Below, piece after piece: positions 57,361-64,000 of a stretch of 64,000 nucleotides of DNA (its first letter is position 1; every line of letters begins with the position of its first letter). The notes below the pieces were generated by a model that had not been told where the DNA came from, did no database searches, and saw nothing but the letters and a program-made list of their open reading frames with translations. A program made the translations under genes and the position numbers. Source of the stretch: Solidesulfovibrio fructosivorans JJ] (GTDB taxonomy: Bacteria > Desulfobacterota > Desulfovibrionia > Desulfovibrionales > Desulfovibrionaceae); contig NZ_AECZ01000015.1 of the NCBI RefSeq assembly GCF_000179555.1, positions 1-64,000 on the forward strand. The letters run 5' to 3'.

Positions 57361-58133
57361 TGGAGTTGACCCGATTTCGTGGACAGATAATCCTTTGAGA
57401 AGGAGAGGTTCACGATGTCGATACGTCCCCCGCATCCCCCGGAATTCCGTAGCCGGATGATCGATCTGGTTCGCTCGGGGCGCAGCCCTAAGGATCTGGC
57501 CACCCTCCGGTCAGACGATCCGCAACTGGGTGCAGCAAGCAGATCGCGACGATGGTCTCCGCCATGATGAACTGAACTCCCAGGAATGGGACGAGCTTCG
57601 AAGATTGCGCCGCGAAAACAAGCAGCTGCGCGAAGAGCGTGAGATCTTGTCAAAAGCCGCAGCCTGGTTCGCCAAGGAGGCCGACTCGACTACGCGGAAG
57701 CGTTCAGGTTCGTGGCAGTGGTTCTGAATGTTTTCAGCCGCAGAGTTGTTGGCTTGGCCATGGCCAGCCATATATGAGAACGGACTTGGTGCTTGCGGCT
57801 CTCACCATGGCGGTGAAACGACGTAATCTTTTCGGGAGTCGTTGCCGTATATTGAATATGTATCAATATATAGAAACTATCTAAAATTGATTTTATAATG
57901 CAATGTGCGAAATTTTCTTTGCATCGTTTGAGTGCTAACTGCTCTGGCAAAACTCGTATCAGTCAAGGCAGGAGGCCAGACTGGCCGTGTTTGATTTCAT
58001 CGAAGGCTGGTACAATACCCATCGACGACATTCTGCTCTCGACTACATGTCGCCGTTGGCTTACGAAAGGATGCATGCTCTCGCTTCATAAGCGTTCAAG
58101 CTGAAAAGTCTCCACAAAATCGGGAGAACTCCA
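57361..58133 (+). pseudogene. IS3-family element, decayed (copy 2 of 2)
   Basis: Ends TGGAGTTGACCCGATTTCGT (57361) and the complement GGAGAACTCCA (58133) match those of 12689-13851. orfA has an 11-bp deletion (after GATCTGGCC, about 57500) and orfB has lost most of its middle: KRSGSWQW runs straight into a VVLNVFSRRVVGLAMASHI frame. Both copies share the extra AT in CATATATGAG. It separates the polysaccharide genes from the plasmid genes. Confidence 0.88.
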
Positions 58134-58156
58134 CTGCACCTGATTGGCACGGCCGG

Positions 58157-59521
58157 TCAGGGAACGTCGCGCACGTTTTTGCGCCAATGCTTTTTGATCC
58201 AGGCGTCCTTTGAGCCGCCGGGAAAGCCTTGCATAATCGATTTCAATTCCTTGGCCGTAAGCGCGTCACGGTATTGCTCGAACCGGACGTTTTCAAGGGT
58301 TTCCAACGCCTCCTTGCGACGACGCATGGCAGTGACGGCGGCTTCGGCCTCGGCCTCCTCCCTGGAGACGTATTCCGGATGCGCCCGCAACACGCCCCAG
58401 CGGGCCAGGGCGGTAAAAATATACGCGGGCACGCTCCGCACCGGCTCGCCTGTTTGCAGGTCCACAAGCTTTCCCTTCGTTTCAAGCTCCCATTCGGCCC
58501 GGTCAAGGCTTAAGGCCAGCAGATCCCGCTCGAGTGTCTTGCCAAGTTTTTCCCGCGCGGCCGAAGCCTGGCCGACCTGCTCCCGGCGCAACCCCGCAGC
58601 AAAAACCCGTGGCCACATGAGCTCCAGAAACGCCTCGTCCCAGCCTTCCAGGGCCTGGATAGAAAGATTTTCTTTCTTATCTATCTCAAGAGGCATTGAG
58701 AGTCTGGCTGACTGGCTGTGCGGCGCATTGACAGACTGGCTTTGAGATGTGCTTAAAGACAGGTCTTGTGCTGGGTTTTGAGATTGGTTTTTTGTTAGGA
58801 TTAATAATTGGCTTACTGACTGGTCGCATGTCTGGTCTTGTTGGTATTGCTCGATGACCGGCTGGTTGAACACCACGCGCACGCCTTGCAAGTTACCGTC
58901 CCGGGCCTTGCGGAAGGTCAAAAAGCCCAGGGCGTCCAGGCGCCGCATAATCGTGCGTATGGAAGCTTCCCGCATATCGAGGACGGCGGCGATGTCGCGG
59001 AATTTAACGATGTAGGGTTTGGTTTGCAGAAGCAGATCCAGGACGCGGCGCTGGTTGTCGTTGAGCCGGTCAGCAACCTTGGCGCGGCCTAATGTCTGGC
59101 CTTTTGAAAGGTCTCTGTCATGGCTTACAGTGTGGCCTTGTGTATGGTCTTTAGTTTGGCTTTTTGAGGGGCTTTGTGTCTGTCTGATAGACTGGCTGGC
59201 CTTTTGATTGGCTTTTGGTGTGGCTGACAGACTGGCTGGCTGTGTATATGTGTGGCTGACAGGCGTCGTGTCCGGGGGGCTGAATGGCTGACTGGTCGAC
59301 TGTGTGGCTGGCTGACTGGCTAACTCCGGTATACGGCGGGCCGAAGCCTCGGGGATTGTCGGCGATTGCGGCGCGTCCGGAGGCGAAGACGACGTTTTGC
59401 CTGTCAAAAAGGCGATGGCGTTTTCCGGAAACGCCGTCAGGGAAGGAAAGGCGTCGAAAGCCTCCTGCGGTGGAATCGTGGCAAAGGGGTCTTCGGACAG
59501 GCTAGGCTTGTTTTTCGACAC
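58157..59521 (-). CDS. Plasmid winged-helix protein 1 (ParB/Rep-like role inferred), repeat linkers
   Basis: 454 residues, ATG 59521, overlapping the end of parA by 20 bp. Architecture: short N-terminal motif; tetrapeptide-repeat linker (about 65-150); winged helix (about 152-222: DRLNDNQRRVLDLLLQTKPY, FRDIAAVLDMREASIRTIMR, ALGFLTFRKARDG); second repeat linker (about 225-280); C-terminal domain (about 290-454) with FEQYRDALTAKEL and GFPGGSKDAWIKKHWRK. Family not recognised. The partner of a ParA in this position is usually a centromere-binding protein; a replication initiator is the alternative. Confidence 0.75.
   Translation of the reverse strand: MSKNKPSLSEDPFATIPPQEAFDAFPSLTAFPENAIAFLTGKTSSSPPDAPQSPTIPEASARRIPELASQPATQSTSQPFSPPDTTPVSHTYTQPASLSATPKANQKASQSIRQTQSPSKSQTKDHTQGHTVSHDRDLSKGQTLGRAKVADRLNDNQRRVLDLLLQTKPYIVKFRDIAAVLDMREASIRTIMRRLDALGFLTFRKARDGNLQGVRVVFNQPVIEQYQQDQTCDQSVSQLLILTKNQSQNPAQDLSLSTSQSQSVNAPHSQSARLSMPLEIDKKENLSIQALEGWDEAFLELMWPRVFAAGLRREQVGQASAAREKLGKTLERDLLALSLDRAEWELETKGKLVDLQTGEPVRSVPAYIFTALARWGVLRAHPEYVSREEAEAEAAVTAMRRRKEALETLENVRFEQYRDALTAKELKSIMQGFPGGSKDAWIKKHWRKNVRDVP
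58690..58855. repeat. 12-bp-period DNA array in the second linker of winged-helix protein 1
   Basis: About 12 degenerate units, coding-strand core CAGTCAGCC and variants (AGCCAGTCTGTC, CAGTCAGTAAGCC). The word CTGGCTGACTGGCT at 58704-58717 (plus strand) is identical to 59308-59321 in the first linker but is read in a different codon frame. Confidence 0.75.
59085..59330. repeat. 12-bp-period DNA array in the first linker of winged-helix protein 1
   Basis: About 20 contiguous units; the plus strand shows TGGCT-type cores at 12-bp intervals (for example 59121, 59133, 59145, 59157 and again 59209, 59221, 59233). The encoded unit is x-S/T-Q-x (ASQP, ATQS, TSQP, VSHT and so on). Confidence 0.8.
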
Positions 59522-60302
59522 GAGCGATCACCTCGCGGGCCAGGGCATGGTAGTCCAGGGCGCCGGATTTGGTGGCGTCAAACTCGAAAATGGACTTGCG
59601 GTGCGAATGCGCACGATCGATATCGATGTTGACCCGGATTTCCGTTTCAAACACCGGGATGCCCTTGGCATCGAAAAATGCCCGGATCCGGCCCTTGTTT
59701 TTTTTGTGGGTCACGGCCCGGCCGTCGAACTTGGTCAGCACCACGCCCAAAAGCAGCAGTTTCTTATTTTGCTGCTTGGCCTGAGAAAGCACCTGGACAA
59801 AGGTGGAAAAGCCGTCCAGGGCGTACTGGTCCCCCACCGGGCACGGGACGAGCACGTAGTCCGAGATGAGCAGCGCATTTCGCAGCATGGGGCCGATATT
59901 GGGCGGCGTGTCTATAAGCACGTAATCGTAGCGGCCGATATCCTTGTCGTTTTGCAACAGCCGTGAAAATCCCAGCACCGAATCGATGCCGGCATAGGAA
60001 CGGACTTCCCATTCCATACAGCGAATGGAATTGGGAACGATTTCCATGTGTTCCGTTTTCGTGGCGCAGGCATTGGGGCTGAATGCCCCTTCGGGGTCCT
60101 CGAGGGCCTTGACCAGGCTCGAATTTTCACGCAACCCAAAATCCGGCAAAAGTGTGGAAGTGGTGTTGGATTGCGGGTCCCCGTCCACCACGAGCACGCT
60201 CGCGCCTTCACGGGCCAACCCTGCGGAAAGATTGATACAGGTCGTTGTTTTTCCGACCCCCCCCTTATTGTTGCCTACGGTAATAATGATAGGTTCTGCC
60301 AT
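59502..60302 (-). CDS. parA: ParA-type partition ATPase 1
   Basis: ATG 60302 (MAEPIIITVGNNKGGVGKTT); a GTG at 60308 is also in frame. 266 residues. Deviant Walker A KGGVGKTT, VLVVDGDPQSNTTSTLLPDF (A'), YDYVLIDTPPNIGPMLRNAL (Walker B) and NKGRIRAFFDAKGIPVFETE. No N-terminal regulatory helix-turn-helix, so it is of the short ParA (type Ib) class. It drives plasmid segregation along the nucleoid with a DNA-binding partner, presumably the winged-helix protein that follows. Confidence 0.92.
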   Translation of the reverse strand: MAEPIIITVGNNKGGVGKTTTCINLSAGLAREGASVLVVDGDPQSNTTSTLLPDFGLRENSSLVKALEDPEGAFSPNACATKTEHMEIVPNSIRCMEWEVRSYAGIDSVLGFSRLLQNDKDIGRYDYVLIDTPPNIGPMLRNALLISDYVLVPCPVGDQYALDGFSTFVQVLSQAKQQNKKLLLLGVVLTKFDGRAVTHKKNKGRIRAFFDAKGIPVFETEIRVNIDIDRAHSHRKSIFEFDATKSGALDYHALAREVIARVEKQA

Positions 60303-60318
60303 TTTCACCCCCCCCTAA

Positions 60319-60353
60319 ATTTCCCTATCGGGCATATTTCCACCGAGGGAAAT
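60319..60353. promoter_or_regulatory. Inverted repeat upstream of parA
   Basis: ATTTCCCT (60319-60326) and its complement AGGGAAAT (60346-60353) are separated by 19 bp and lie 17-51 bp upstream of the parA start. The spacing suits an operator or a partition site for the parA operon. No other evidence supports it. Confidence 0.4.
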
Positions 60354-60531
60354 CCTTGTCAACGCAATCCATTACCTATTTTCTCGGGGCGCGGTTTCTC
60401 TCGTAGCGGGAAAAAGCGGACATCCGCCAGCCAGAAACTGTCCATCGAGGTATTTGGCCTGGAAGGAACGAGTTCGTGCTTTCGTGTCGGCAAGCAGAAA
60501 TCGTCCGTCGCAGGAGGAAAGCGCCTTTCCC

Positions 60532-61053
60532 TCAATCGTTGCGAAGGAATTTTTTCAAATCCTTCATGACGAGGAAAAGCCGATACGGATCGGTCGGGCT
60601 GGAATCAAAGGCGAAATGTTCATAGAAGGCTTTGGCCTGGTCATCCTTGGCGACGACGAACAGGGCGCGGATACCGGCAATGTCCGCGGCCTGCGCCGTG
60701 CGAAGTAGGGCATCCTTGAGGAGGCCTTTTCCGATCCCGAGCCCCTGCTCGCGGCGATCGACGGCAAGCCGCGCCAAAACCATGACCGGCACGAGGTGGC
60801 GGGCAAGCCCCTTCCCGACTCTTGCCGGTACGGTTCGGTGCGCAGCACCGCCTACGGCAAGGCTGTAGTAGCCAACGACGACATCACCACGCGTGGCGAC
60901 GTAGGTTTGCGCGCTGTTGGCTTGCTGGCCGGCGAGAGCGAATTTTTTCAGAAAACGGTTAAGTTCCTCGTGTCCACAATCAAAGGGCCCCGTGTCATGC
61001 GCGGTGCACAACTTTTCGACCGGAGAGAGCGGGGCCGTGATACGACTGCTCAC
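60532..61053 (-). CDS. tacT: GNAT acetyltransferase toxin, TacT-like
   Basis: GTG 61053 overlaps the antitoxin stop (GTGA); a GTG at 61074 would add seven residues. 173 residues. TacT/AtaT features: TGPFDCGHEELNRFLKKFAL at the N-terminus, VVGYYSLAVGG, PVMVLARLAVDRREQGLGIG (acetyl-CoA loop REQGLG), ALFVVAKDDQAKAFYEHFAF. Such toxins acetylate charged tRNAs and block translation. Together with tacA it is a likely plasmid-stabilising pair. Confidence 0.88.
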   Translation of the reverse strand: MSSRITAPLSPVEKLCTAHDTGPFDCGHEELNRFLKKFALAGQQANSAQTYVATRGDVVVGYYSLAVGGAAHRTVPARVGKGLARHLVPVMVLARLAVDRREQGLGIGKGLLKDALLRTAQAADIAGIRALFVVAKDDQAKAFYEHFAFDSSPTDPYRLFLVMKDLKKFLRND

Positions 61054-61328
61054 TCGAACACACTCGTTTCGCACAACAGCGCTTCAAGGCGGGGCTTTGG
61101 TTTCGTCGGCGCATCGAGCGCCGCCTGAAAAGCCGCCCATGCCGCATCATCAAGCTGGAGAAGCCTCTGCTCGGCCAATACCGCGGCAGCTTCGGTCAAG
61201 GCGACATCAAGCATAAATTCGGTCACCGTCTTGCTCTTGGCGGCGGCGGCTTCTTGTAAAACGCGCTTCACGCTTGTTGTGGTGCGGATGTCTATCCGCT
61301 CTGATTTTGCTTCCGTTCCCAGGTTCAT
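61050..61328 (-). CDS. tacA: DUF1778 antitoxin, TacA-like
   Basis: ATG 61328 (MNLGTEAKSERIDIRTTTSV) with GGAAGGAAG upstream; 92 residues. Ribbon-helix-helix N-terminus (SERIDIRTTTSVKRVLQEAA, KTVTEFMLDVALTEAAAVL) and a C-terminal toxin-binding tail (WAAFQAALDAP). It neutralises TacT and normally represses its own promoter; the palindrome at 61377-61394 is a fitting operator. Confidence 0.9.
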   Translation of the reverse strand: MNLGTEAKSERIDIRTTTSVKRVLQEAAAAKSKTVTEFMLDVALTEAAAVLAEQRLLQLDDAAWAAFQAALDAPTKPKPRLEALLCETSVFE

Positions 61329-61376
61329 GGTGTTTCTTCCTTCCGTGGCGCAAATTGGAATTGTCCTATCATCCGG

Positions 61377-61394
61377 ATATTGTCCGGACAATAT
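61377..61394. promoter_or_regulatory. Perfect 18-bp palindrome, candidate TacA operator
   Basis: ATATTGTCCGGACAATAT is its own reverse complement. It lies about 50 bp upstream of the tacA start, with a further half-site TTGTCC at 61361. Ribbon-helix-helix antitoxins bind palindromes of this kind, so autoregulation by TacA(-TacT) is inferred. Confidence 0.7.
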
Positions 61395-61477
61395 AAAATT
61401 GAGGCTTGTCGGCGAGGAGTCAAGAGGACTTCCGGTGTCCAAGGCGGGTCAAACGGGCGTTGTTTCTGCCGGCTCTT

Positions 61478-61507
61478 CTCGTTAACTTCTCATAAAAAGT
61501 TAACGAG
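61478..61507. other. 11-bp inverted repeat near the recombinase gene
   Basis: CTCGTTAACTT (61478-61488) and AAGTTAACGAG (61497-61507) are exact complements around an 8-bp spacer. A looser second version (CTCATTAACTCAT to AAAAGTTAA, about 61586-61620) lies upstream of the recombinase start. The geometry (11-8-11) resembles a tyrosine-recombinase core site; a bidirectional hairpin terminator for tacAT is possible too. Confidence 0.5.
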
Positions 61508-61641
61508 CTATATATCGTATGAAAGCGTATAAATTTATGGTGTTAGGCGTATTTTGAGGTCAGGCGCTTGAAAAAACCTTTCTTTCTCATTAACTCATAC
61601 CCAAATAAGACATAAAAGTTAAAAAGCGGTGGGAGGGGAAA

Positions 61642-62238
61642 ATGGCCGGAAACGGAAACAGGAATCATCCCCAGCGGGGCAGCTCCATCGCCGTGGAGCC
61701 GATCAAGAGCTTGCGGGCAATCGCCACCATCAAGAAATTGCTGGCGGATAGTCCGCGCAACTACGCGCTTTTTGTGGTCGGGATCAACACGGCGCTTCGC
61801 GGCTGCGACCTGCTGTCGCTGACGGCCGGCGAGGTGCGCGCCATCCTGGCCGATCCGGACGGCGCGGCCAAACGTGAACGCAAAACCGGGAAGAAGCGGC
61901 GGTTGACCGCCAACGGCGCGGTGCGCAAGGCGCTGCTCGGACTTTTGGCCACGCGGGACTTCGCGGACGAGGATCAGGTCTTCCAGGGCCAGCGCGGGCC
62001 GATCACCAAGCAGTACCTGTGGGCCCTGGTCAAGGGCTGGTGCGGGGCCATCAACCTGCCCGGACATTACGGCGCGCACACCTTGCGCAAGACCTGGGGC
62101 TATCACCAGCGCGTGACTTACGGCGTGGATATCCCCACGCTGATGGCGATTTTCGGCCACGCCACCCAGCGCCAAACCCTGGCATACCTGTGCATCCAAC
62201 CCGAAGAAATCCGATCGGTCTACGCCAACGAGCTGTAG
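61642..62238 (+). CDS. Small tyrosine recombinase (catalytic domain only)
   Basis: 198 residues, ATG 61642 after GGGAGGGG. Catalytic set: Arg in NTALRGCDLLSLTAGEV, HTLRKTWGYH (His-x-x-Arg), GHATQRQTLAYLCIQPEEI (His and Tyr). The N-terminal core-binding domain of longer integrases is absent. It is probably a plasmid multimer-resolution enzyme rather than a phage integrase; the inverted repeat at 61478-61507 is its possible site. It is the only plus-strand gene in this plasmid section. Confidence 0.85.
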   Translation: MAGNGNRNHPQRGSSIAVEPIKSLRAIATIKKLLADSPRNYALFVVGINTALRGCDLLSLTAGEVRAILADPDGAAKRERKTGKKRRLTANGAVRKALLGLLATRDFADEDQVFQGQRGPITKQYLWALVKGWCGAINLPGHYGAHTLRKTWGYHQRVTYGVDIPTLMAIFGHATQRQTLAYLCIQPEEIRSVYANEL

Positions 62239-62328
62239 CTGCGGCGACAACGTCGCCAGCGGGGCGCTTCGTCTTTGAGTAGCCGGCGTGCGGTGCGGGC
62301 CATGCCGCCAGGCGCGCAGACCAGCAGC

Positions 62329-63612
62329 TCACGTCCGGGACTTGCGCCAGGCCGCCTTGAGCCAGGCATCCTTCGGGCCGCCGGGATAGCCGTGCATAGC
62401 CTGGGCCAGTTTCTCCGGGGAAAGCGCATCACGCCAGGTCTCGAACTGTGCCTGCTCGGCCTTGCGCCAGGCCACGGCCACGGCCCTAGCTTCCTCTTCG
62501 GCATCCCGGGCCGCCTGTTCCTCGGGCGAAACATACCCTTTTGGACGACGGTAATAGCCGGTGCGGGCCAGGGAACGGAAAACCCAGGCACATGGGTCGA
62601 GCACAGGCTGGCCCTCTTTGTCGCGCATGGCTCCCTGGGCCAGCTCCCATTCGGCATGATCAAGGCTTCCCACCACCTTGTCGACGGGTTTGCCAAGCTC
62701 GGCCAATGACGCGGTGATCTGTTCGAATTGTTCCCGGTCAAAACCTGCCCGGTGCAGATTGGGCCAAGTCATCGCGATACGCTCTGAAGAGATAGATAGA
62801 TTTTCTATCTTTCTATCTTCCTTATTTATGGTCGGATCACCTGTCGGCTCAGGCGCCTTCACTGGCGCCATGGTTGGGACATCCTTCGGCTCATGCGTTG
62901 GATCAGGTGTCAGGTCAAGTGTCGGGTCATGCTGCTTAAATGCTTGGCAACGGGAGTGGACCAGAAACAGGCGCAGTCCCTGGCACACGCCGTGGCGGTA
63001 GGTCTCCTTGCGGAAAAAGCCCAGTTCGGCGAACTCGGCAAAATACCTTTTTACTGAAATTTCGGTGAGTTGAAGTGCTCTCGCCACGGAATGACGGTTG
63101 AGGATATAATCATCCCCGTCCGGTTCGTTGTCGATGATAAAATGGAGGAAGCGCCGCTTGTTCTCGGCCAGGCTTCGAATGATCTGTTTCATCCCGAGCG
63201 TATCAGCCGGAGACCTAGTAGGGACACCTCTCGGCTCAACGGTCGGATCATATTTAGGGGTTGGATCAAGAGTTGGTGCATGCGTCAGCTCATGATCCGA
63301 CAGGGGTCCCAACTCCTGTCCCGACAGCGGTCGGGTCACCGGTCCCGACAGGGGTGCCGACACCTGATCCGACACTTGAGCCGGCAAATGATCCGACAGA
63401 TGAACTGAAGTATGATCCGACTCATCTGGGCACGCCTGGGCCGGAGCAGCCTCCGGCTCCGGGCGCTTGGTGGGGAAAACGCTGATCTTGTCGGCCATGC
63501 GCGCGGCCTCGGCAAGACTGAGCCGGCCATCCGCCGACTTCTTGAGCGTATCGAAGATAGAGCGTCTGTGTTTGGGTTTGACGTCGGGCATGGCTTCCCC
63601 TGGGGCGCTCAT
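62329..63612 (-). CDS. Plasmid winged-helix protein 2 (ParB/Rep-like role inferred), repeat linkers
   Basis: 427 residues; start 63612 overlaps the stop of parA2 (ATGA). Same architecture as the protein at 58157-59521: N-terminal motif; repeat linker (about 62-140); winged helix (about 142-220: MKQIIRSLAENKRRFLHFII, RHSVARALQLTEISVKRYFA, ELGFFRKETYRHG); second linker (about 222-270); C-terminal domain with WDLAQGAMRD-like WELAQG, VFRSLARTGYYRRPKGYVSP, FETWRDALSPEKL, GYPGGPKDAWLKAAWRK. Clear paralogue, but with a different repeat unit. Confidence 0.75.
   Translation of the reverse strand: MSAPGEAMPDVKPKHRRSIFDTLKKSADGRLSLAEAARMADKISVFPTKRPEPEAAPAQACPDESDHTSVHLSDHLPAQVSDQVSAPLSGPVTRPLSGQELGPLSDHELTHAPTLDPTPKYDPTVEPRGVPTRSPADTLGMKQIIRSLAENKRRFLHFIIDNEPDGDDYILNRHSVARALQLTEISVKRYFAEFAELGFFRKETYRHGVCQGLRLFLVHSRCQAFKQHDPTLDLTPDPTHEPKDVPTMAPVKAPEPTGDPTINKEDRKIENLSISSERIAMTWPNLHRAGFDREQFEQITASLAELGKPVDKVVGSLDHAEWELAQGAMRDKEGQPVLDPCAWVFRSLARTGYYRRPKGYVSPEEQAARDAEEEARAVAVAWRKAEQAQFETWRDALSPEKLAQAMHGYPGGPKDAWLKAAWRKSRT
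62831..62929. repeat. 12-bp-period DNA array in the second linker of winged-helix protein 2
   Basis: Seven near-matches to GTYGGRTCA on the plus strand start at 62831, 62843, 62873, 62885, 62897, 62909 and 62921; the last five are exactly 12 bp apart. On the coding strand this gives the D-P-T type unit. Confidence 0.8.
63230..63422. repeat. 12-bp-period DNA array in the first linker of winged-helix protein 2, with orientation switch
   Basis: On the plus strand, units of the type GTYGGRTCA start at 63230, 63242, 63260, 63272, 63284. From 63294 the complementary type GATCCGACA continues at 63294, 63318, 63342, 63354, 63366, 63378, 63390, 63414 with weaker units between, all in one 12-bp phase. 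The switch falls near 63290. Confidence 0.82.
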
Positions 63613-64000
63613 TCAGGGCTTTCGAGGATAAGCCGGAGTTCGGCGGCCAATTCCCGGTAGGCTTTGGCGCCGTAGGTGGCGGAGTGACTGCCGAAGACGG
63701 TGGCCTTGGTGTATTCGGCCTGTTCGAAGACTGTGCTGCGCGGGATGTGGGTTTCAAACATCTTACCGCGGAAATTGTCCTCCAGCTCGGAAACGATGAG
63801 CCGCCCCATGGCGGTCCGGCGGTCGATGTTGTTGACCAGAAGGCGCAGGAAACGCAGATCCGGGTTGCCGTCCTCCTGGATCTTCTCGATGACGGTCAAC
63901 ACGCGCAACAGGCCCTCGATGCTGTAGGCGGAACCGGCGGAGATGGGCACGATGCAAAAGTCCGCGGCAAACAGGGAGGACAGGGAGAAAAAGCCAAGGT
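63609..64000 (-). CDS. parA: ParA-type partition ATPase 2, C-terminal part (cut by window edge)
   Basis: About 130 C-terminal residues are visible: LGFFSLSSLFAADFCIVPIS after the expected Walker B position, then GLLRVLTVIEKIQEDGNPDL, RFLRLLVNNIDRRTAMGRLI and FETHIPRSTVFEQAEYTKAT, VFGSHSATYGAKAYRELAAE. These are ParA/Soj C-terminal features (compare HIPRS and the AK-Y-x-x-L-A helix). It is divergent from ParA 1. Coupled to the following winged-helix gene by ATGA. Confidence 0.85.
   Translation of the reverse strand, partial: LGFFSLSSLFAADFCIVPISAGSAYSIEGLLRVLTVIEKIQEDGNPDLRFLRLLVNNIDRRTAMGRLIVSELEDNFRGKMFETHIPRSTVFEQAEYTKATVFGSHSATYGAKAYRELAAELRLILESPE

Follow-up and report, generated by a model that had tools for sequence, protein, structure and literature searches.

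In a plasmid gene of sulfate-reducing bacteria, the coding sequence seems to hold the sites that the encoded protein is inferred to bind, most likely for the start of plasmid replication

Initiators of replication often autoregulate, winged-helix proteins act as centromere binders in other systems, and origins located inside initiator genes are already known. In the plasmid pSK41, for example, the winged-helix domain has been reported to bind four boxes inside rep, where the encoded linker is dispensable, and primase is bound by the C-terminal domain of Rep, which is DnaD-like; pPR9 has exchanged the binding domain together with the origin and retained the C-terminal domain (PMC5703833). Another example is lambda, whose origin lies inside O and includes iterons and a 40-bp A+T-rich region (PMC5043065). 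The DNA considered here (the window) is a stretch of 64,000 nucleotides from Solidesulfovibrio fructosivorans JJ, positions 1 to 64,000 of contig NZ_AECZ01000015.1. Gene B of this window (Table 1), a plasmid gene of sulfate-reducing bacteria, seems to have the binding sites for its own protein spread along its coding sequence, the binding itself being inferred. These sites most likely serve the start of plasmid copying and, since they are written through the coding sequence, the same DNA doubles as control site and as protein code.

The family to which gene B belongs resembles the Rep of pSK41 (RepA_N, staphylococcal plasmids) in the winged helix, the central origin boxes within rep, the origin-encoded linker and the separate helical C-terminal domain, and it resembles the pSK41/pPR9 pair in the natural swap of binding domain and origin with the C-terminal domain kept. 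The RepA_N trait of repeated sites between the binding domain and the C-terminal domain is seen in the array of linker 2, and linker 1 has an array as well, with binding again inferred. However, neither of the two window proteins matched RepA_N (PF06970) in the Pfam scan (E ≤ 1), and a six-frame search for RepA_N in 11 genomes or records found none, with a silent control. In addition, the sites of this family lie in two linkers flanking the winged helix, with at least 21 matrix hits in each of the genes given a matrix instead of four boxes, and the family differs from pSK41 in its 13-bp three-frame units, its AT-rich palindrome, the adjoining ParA and the Desulfovibrionales hosts. With lambda O the family shares iterons within the gene, with an A+T-rich stretch after them. 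It differs in the length, number and position of the units and in the plasmid setting with ParA, and no O match was obtained in the Pfam scan (E ≤ 1); PHROG gave O-like matches in two of six proteins, only at E 0.002-0.02 and covering the winged helix and the linker. Finally, ParA systems with iteron centromeres also have parA directly upstream, a DNA-binding protein and short sites arranged in an array, but here the sites are within the coding sequence, ParB_N is missing, there is a large extra C-terminal domain, and some members have no ParA detected nearby.

Table 1. Positions in the window of the two family genes and their parts.
Feature	Position	Strand	Basis
Gene B, 427-aa winged-helix protein with an array in both linkers	62329..63612	-	ORF and family profile match
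Linker 1 array of gene B, 11 GTCGGNTCA sites with at most one mismatch	63230..63421	-	site positions, shuffles, matrix
Linker 2 array of gene B, 6 GTCGGNTCA sites in a single orientation	62831..62929	-	site positions, shuffles
Winged-helix domain of gene B, between the array-bearing linkers, likely reader of the word	62935..63201	-	profile match
C-terminal helical domain of gene B, common to the family, no Pfam family	62332..62793	-	AlphaFold2 pLDDT 85
AT-rich inverted repeat AGATAGAAAGAT...ATCTATCTATCT of gene B, directly before the C-terminal domain	62786..62822	-	inverted-repeat search, fixed motif
ParA upstream of gene B, truncated by the window end	63609..63998	-	Pfam and NCBIfam matches on the fragment
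Gene A, paralogue of B, 454 aa, with its own AGCCANTCA-type word in both linkers	58157..59521	-	z 7.4, matrix
ParA of cassette A, complete	59502..60308	-	Pfam AAA_31, E 2.3e-38
Linker 1 array of gene A, spacing mostly 12 and 8 bp	59084..59335	-	matrix
Linker 2 array of gene A	58700..58855	-	matrix
AT-rich inverted repeat of gene A	58652..58687	-	pairing-chosen window, fixed motif

Within gene B (62332-63612), 18 GTCGGNTCA sites are found with at most one mismatch on both strands, all in the two linkers except one at 63519-63527, which carries one mismatch. Synonymous-codon shuffles that keep the protein gave a mean of 8.5 and a maximum of 16, and shuffles of codon order within the two linkers a mean of 2.4 and a maximum of 7; 18 was reached by none of the 2000 shuffles of either kind. 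The initial annotation had proposed to scan the plasmid with a matrix of the 12-mers; on this contig (111,446 bp scanned) the exact 9-mer TGATCCGAC is confined to gene B, with six copies there and none in the other 110 kb; with one mismatch allowed, there are 11 in the gene and 16 in the rest of the contig (8.6 vs 0.15 per kb). The 17-bp matrix built for the gene places 14 of 23 gaps at 12 bp and divides its sites 10/14 between the strands.

The array of linker 2 is absent from the initial annotation, which had described linker 1 as 12-bp units in one phase, carrying GTYGGRTCA on the window plus strand left of a switch and its complement on the right. The switch has been located at 63292/63293 and the four sites on its left (63230-63292) do read GTYGGRTCA on the plus strand. 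Six sites in 63293-63421 have the complementary orientation as proposed, but an exact copy at 63330-63338 is opposite and in another reading frame, so that the split over the linker is 6 vs 5. Similarly, a single 12-bp phase holds for the six sites of the right block and fails for the left block, which uses two other phases. The translation of one word into different peptides is borne out (ESDH/LSDH/VSDQ/LSGQ/LPAQ vs LDPT/YDPT/VEPR/HELT). The inverted arrangement is present in gene B but is no common trait, as all 31 matrix sites of another member, L040, have one orientation.

The inverted repeat of gene B is equalled by 2 of 60 synonymous shuffles, with an RNA fold z of -2.0. The ParA fragment before the gene matched Pfam AAA_31 slightly below the cut-off (E 7.8e-6, 26.4 bits) and NCBIfam ParA_partition far below the whole-protein cut-off (E 6.7e-7); ParA in L001 was found by tblastn (E 1.4e-71, 45% identity). 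The domain of gene A homologous to the winged-helix region of B was modelled as a winged helix with pLDDT 90.

Arrays of this kind have been followed through a family set of 58 ORFs with differing C-terminal sequences (from loci L001-L079). The words differ among the branches of the family and are common to close relatives. An 8-mer test against synonymous shuffles gave z ≥ 4 in 26 of 57 genes, counting L067, whose best 8-mer is poly-A, and L037; L069 was left out because N read as A produced an artefact. Matrices were built for 18 of the 58 genes, picked for visible words, and in them the cores are conserved while the information between cores is mostly low. In eight of these 18 genes the spacing is 13 bp, and therefore the reading frame shifts at each successive unit. 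The word is in fact used near-equally over the three frames in seven of the eight (L066 21/21/21, L028 14/15/13, L027 12/13/12, L013 10/12/13, L011 10/12/9, L010 11/9/9, and L025 9/11/9); the eighth, L007, has 7/5/13. The matrices of L066 and L028 also picked up the opposite strand, at offsets of 6-7 bp. Both strands are used in several arrays, with 17/19 matrix sites in L024, 23/6 in L010, and 20/11 in L011. In 32 linkers of 16 genes the coding frame is open from the winged helix to the C-terminal domain, which holds by construction because the ORFs had been selected as open frames, and stops occur in 60 of the 64 other forward frames of these linkers. Constraint on the peptide alone does not yield such three-frame, two-strand arrays.

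The word follows the winged-helix domain and not the C-terminal domain, as has been observed in seven relatives whose C-terminal domains are 69-77% identical to that of B. In three of them the winged helix is 77-81% identical, and these have 25-28 sites of the word of B; the four with a winged helix only 20-25% identical carry 0-4 such sites and other words instead. According to the initial annotation, homologues keeping the peptide and losing the DNA word would refute selection on DNA; the opposite has been found, since in the three closer relatives the word is kept with different mixes of orientation, and the peptide varies. Within this group, nearly all the linker peptides of L040 are of the DPT/EPT/VPT type, and L024 mixes DPT/EPT/VPT with SGQ/SAQ types.

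The AT-rich palindrome that precedes the C-terminal domain is a second DNA feature. With GANAGA-N(2-18)-TCTNTC taken as a fixed motif, 41 of the 56 members have it directly ahead of this domain, where synonymous shuffles would lead one to expect 3.9, and it is not seen once in the other 74,591 nt of the family genes; L037, which is 99.7% identical to L010, and L069, which consists largely of N, had been removed from the palindrome and C-terminal sets. A strict pattern, AGATAGATAGA-N(3-11)-TCTATCTATCT, was found at nine distinct places in 7 of 288 genomes, every one inside a family gene, and its reversed control had no match in the 288 genomes. The two palindromes of the window are imperfect and fall outside the strict pattern. 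Both the fixed motif and the genome-wide pattern are independent of pairing, although the motif was derived from the same sequences and several members are closely related. Among the cases with perfect arms the loop is 3 to 11 long, and because of this variation the right arm is translated in different frames, as LSIS or as SIYL, a further sign of selection on DNA. In the arms, 9 of 12 pairs have changed on both sides and the covariation score was reached by none of 500 shuffles; this count is partly circular, because 36 windows were picked by pairing and 20 of the 56 rows omitted. When only the best inverted repeat was sought, many members were not above synonymous shuffles, among them gene A, whose repeat alone is matched by 21 of 60. 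The tests did not separate an RNA from a DNA form of the hairpin. Taken together, selection on DNA in the family arrays, which the initial annotation had suggested in the form of an iteron or parS-like array within the coding sequence, is well supported because of the shuffle excess, the use of three frames, the linkage of word and winged helix and the palindrome excess. The DNA-level arrays, the palindrome and the joint travel of word and winged helix are observations; binding remains inferred.

In the genomes of the same taxonomic family, a search with the family profile gave a match in 51 of 288; among plasmid records, B had 11 matches and A had 6. Of the 58 ORFs, 33 have ParA directly upstream; at least three of the remainder (L014, L030, and L047) are at the end of their locus, and a very divergent ParA would have been missed. 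Where both genes are fully annotated (pDMC2, pDRET01, the D. bizertense plasmid, pDMC1, and pDVUL01), the gap between them is 2 to 50 bp. Some members without ParA are found beside conjugation genes, such as L073 (VirD4-type coupling protein and S26-type peptidase) and L031 (NikA, relaxase). Because the L073 gene is near the VirD4-type gene and the S26 peptidase, the same device may be at work in a conjugative element. The genes L073, L075, L076, and L079, with no ParA detected, have CGGTATCA arrays in two orientations. The members L012 and L014, on N. vulgaris plasmids, exceed 1100 aa; their linker region is very long and their word is GTCACCCC. The contig of L027, a close relative, was binned as Spirochaetia, which may reflect a binning error or a transferred plasmid.

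For L003, L004, L005, and L013, public annotation begins beyond the first array or splits the gene, and the array region is either unannotated or given an opposite-strand ORF, the plasmid gene table being incomplete. In the feature tables of seven plasmids, some of them partial, an initiator is listed only on D. sulfoxidireducens p1, and some family genes are annotated too short or divided at the array. Searches of Pfam, NCBIfam, PHROGs and PDB sequences with the proteins or the C-terminal domain assigned no family; weak matches, such as those to internalin K, DinB_2, or RanBP2, were taken as composition noise. No relatives were found in the scan of viral contigs or by phage tblastn, and an Rfam scan of 58000-64000 gave no match.

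The window holds two such cassettes, and genes A and B are 34% identical. The plasmids pDCAR1 and pDMC1 also have two family genes each, one of them near A; the second has a C-terminal domain nearer that of B (57% for L007) and a different winged helix and word. L024 is on a scaffold of S. alcoholivorans in which an A-like and a B-like gene are less than 10 kb apart. Between the cassettes of the window, at 60532-61442 (-), there is a small acetyltransferase-like ORF with an overlapping small ORF, a couple with the appearance of a toxin-antitoxin pair. An ORF at 61642-62238 (+) is taken, by eye, to be tyrosine recombinase/integrase-like (HTLRKTWGYH stretch) and is possibly part of a plasmid resolution system.

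By analogy with the systems described above, a gene that combines iterons, an AT-rich palindrome, a winged helix and, as a separate unit, a C-terminal domain most likely follows the design of an initiator with a built-in origin. It is considered probable, with a fair margin of doubt, that the product of this gene initiates plasmid replication and that the origin lies in the gene itself. The repeated word in both linkers would be bound, as iterons, by the winged-helix domain of the encoded protein; strand opening, or the formation of a hairpin, would take place at the AT-rich inverted repeat after them; the C-terminal domain would bring in the host replication machinery; and ParA, made immediately upstream, probably works on the same protein. 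Because the linkers would mainly need to stay translatable, the DNA could dictate their peptide. Binding, strand opening, recruitment of a helicase or primase and the link to ParA are all inferred. Several searches bear on this proposal. Rep_3 (PF01051) was found in only one of ten plasmid records, as a separate gene of D. sulfoxidireducens p1, and had no match in the window proteins in the Pfam scan; RPA gave only a sub-cut-off match, on the same p1; TrfA and RepA_N were found on none of the plasmid records, but their controls were silent. The ten records are not independent, pDCAR1/pDMC1 and pDVUL01/pDsulf-L2-1 being near relatives. None of the 12 annotated proteins of the 8.9-kb pDMC2, each searched in at least one library, matched an initiator family, and two of them are DnaB_C helicase-like. 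Known initiator families likewise failed to match the family proteins in Pfam, NCBIfam and further profile searches. Replication families of PHROG (DnaD-like loader, O-like, and initiation) matched three of six proteins weakly (E 0.0004-0.02), and B not at all.

The C-terminal model matched the DnaD domain 2i5u in VIA (Z 3.4, rmsd 3.6, 65/77 residues), a weak result, third among 21 rows; it alone in that list seemed meaningful, yet it tied with unrelated rows. Foldseek with the same model found nothing at E ≤ 0.001 against PDB and viral structures, and the DnaB_2 profile nothing on nine plasmid records, with one unrelated place at E 1.19 in genome G000. The winged-helix model gives no function, because MarR/ArsR-type structures and DnaD-N match about equally. 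In the masked GC skew the minimum lies at most 16 bp from the cassette edge in pDVUL01 and pDsulf-L2-2, and elsewhere in pDMC1, pDRET01, and D. sulfoxidireducens p1; over 11 plasmids the effect is modest (p = 0.026), with cassette limits set by hand on the G261 contigs. The unmasked minimum, at most 0.5 kb from the gene in five of seven plasmids, was set aside because masking showed much of it to be due to array composition. The skew signal would also fit a centromere near the origin.

Other explanations of the arrays have been considered. The linkers could be repetitive disordered spacers selected for their amino acids, with the DNA repeats as a by-product of tandem duplication. In favour of this, the 12-bp arrays of L040 and L042 are mostly in one frame and orientation (27/28 and 24/28), the indels observed between relatives include 12, 24, 39, and 60 bp among others, as expected of duplication, and some genes are not above synonymous shuffles in the 8-mer test, such as L040 (z 1.1) and L006 (z 0.1). 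Such a peptide-level origin is nevertheless hardly credible in the face of one word used in three frames and on two strands, of its excess over shuffles that keep the protein, and of conserved cores with mostly little information in between. Binding by the protein to its own gene solely to block transcription or control copy number is only a little less improbable: the sites are within the gene and autoregulation is frequent among initiators, but 18 to 24 sites over two linkers far exceed what an operator needs, and the palindrome is left unexplained.

The position of ParA raises a more serious alternative, in which the adjacent ParA has the winged-helix protein as an unusual partner, the arrays serve this protein as a centromere, bound in the manner of other iteron centromeres, and replication is run otherwise. 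ParA upstream of more than half of the members, at the short gaps given above, counts against an initiator and suits a centromere, and no ParB_N protein is present in the ten plasmid records or, by Pfam, among the window proteins (the control was positive in 10 of 14 genomes). Winged-helix centromere binders exist in other systems; the TubR chain 6tey matched only at E 1.2. Many members without ParA also lack an array (e.g., L057-L061 and L070), and D. sulfoxidireducens p1 has a gene of this family together with its Rep_3 gene, both counterpoints to an initiator. Against a centromere alone, which is judged unlikely, arrays persist in members with no upstream ParA found (L055, L071, L073, L075, L076, and L079), the palindrome accompanies the gene with or without ParA, nine of the ten plasmid records have no Rep_3, and separate partition functions exist, as a small ParA on pDRET01 and on D. 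sulfoxidireducens p1 and a MipZ-type ATPase on the D. bizertense plasmid. Between the two options of the initial annotation, the evidence thus leans to replication iterons over parS. Because ParA sits upstream, a centromere, or both roles together, is not excluded, and since ParA adjoins the gene a partition role is likely at some level, alone or within the same protein. One protein and one array may even do both jobs; this would be a new family of initiators, acted on directly by ParA, with iterons inside the gene that double as origin and centromere; this is put forward tentatively, with somewhat less doubt than a centromere alone. If true, the core maintenance region of the plasmid would be parA and one coding sequence, and compatibility would change through the joint swap of winged helix and array.

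For a gene that would be both initiator and origin, what is new with respect to the known cases is the lack of a match to any tested initiator family, the arrays flanking the winged helix, the three-frame 13-bp units, the family-specific palindrome and the ParA in front. A literature search found no title on an intragenic array in Desulfovibrio plasmids, subscription journals being mostly uncovered, and the family gene is absent from the main text, so far as it was available, of a transposon study that includes plasmid pDV1 (PMC10102598). The 13-bp arrays are a clean example of the spacing of DNA sites dictating a protein stretch, over three frames and, in several genes, on both strands. Through the link of ParA with a protein resembling an initiator, one can test directly how replication and partition are coupled. 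Finally, if the proposal is true, sulfate-reducing bacteria would have a replication-initiator family whose origin is already located, which would be of use for vectors in such hosts.
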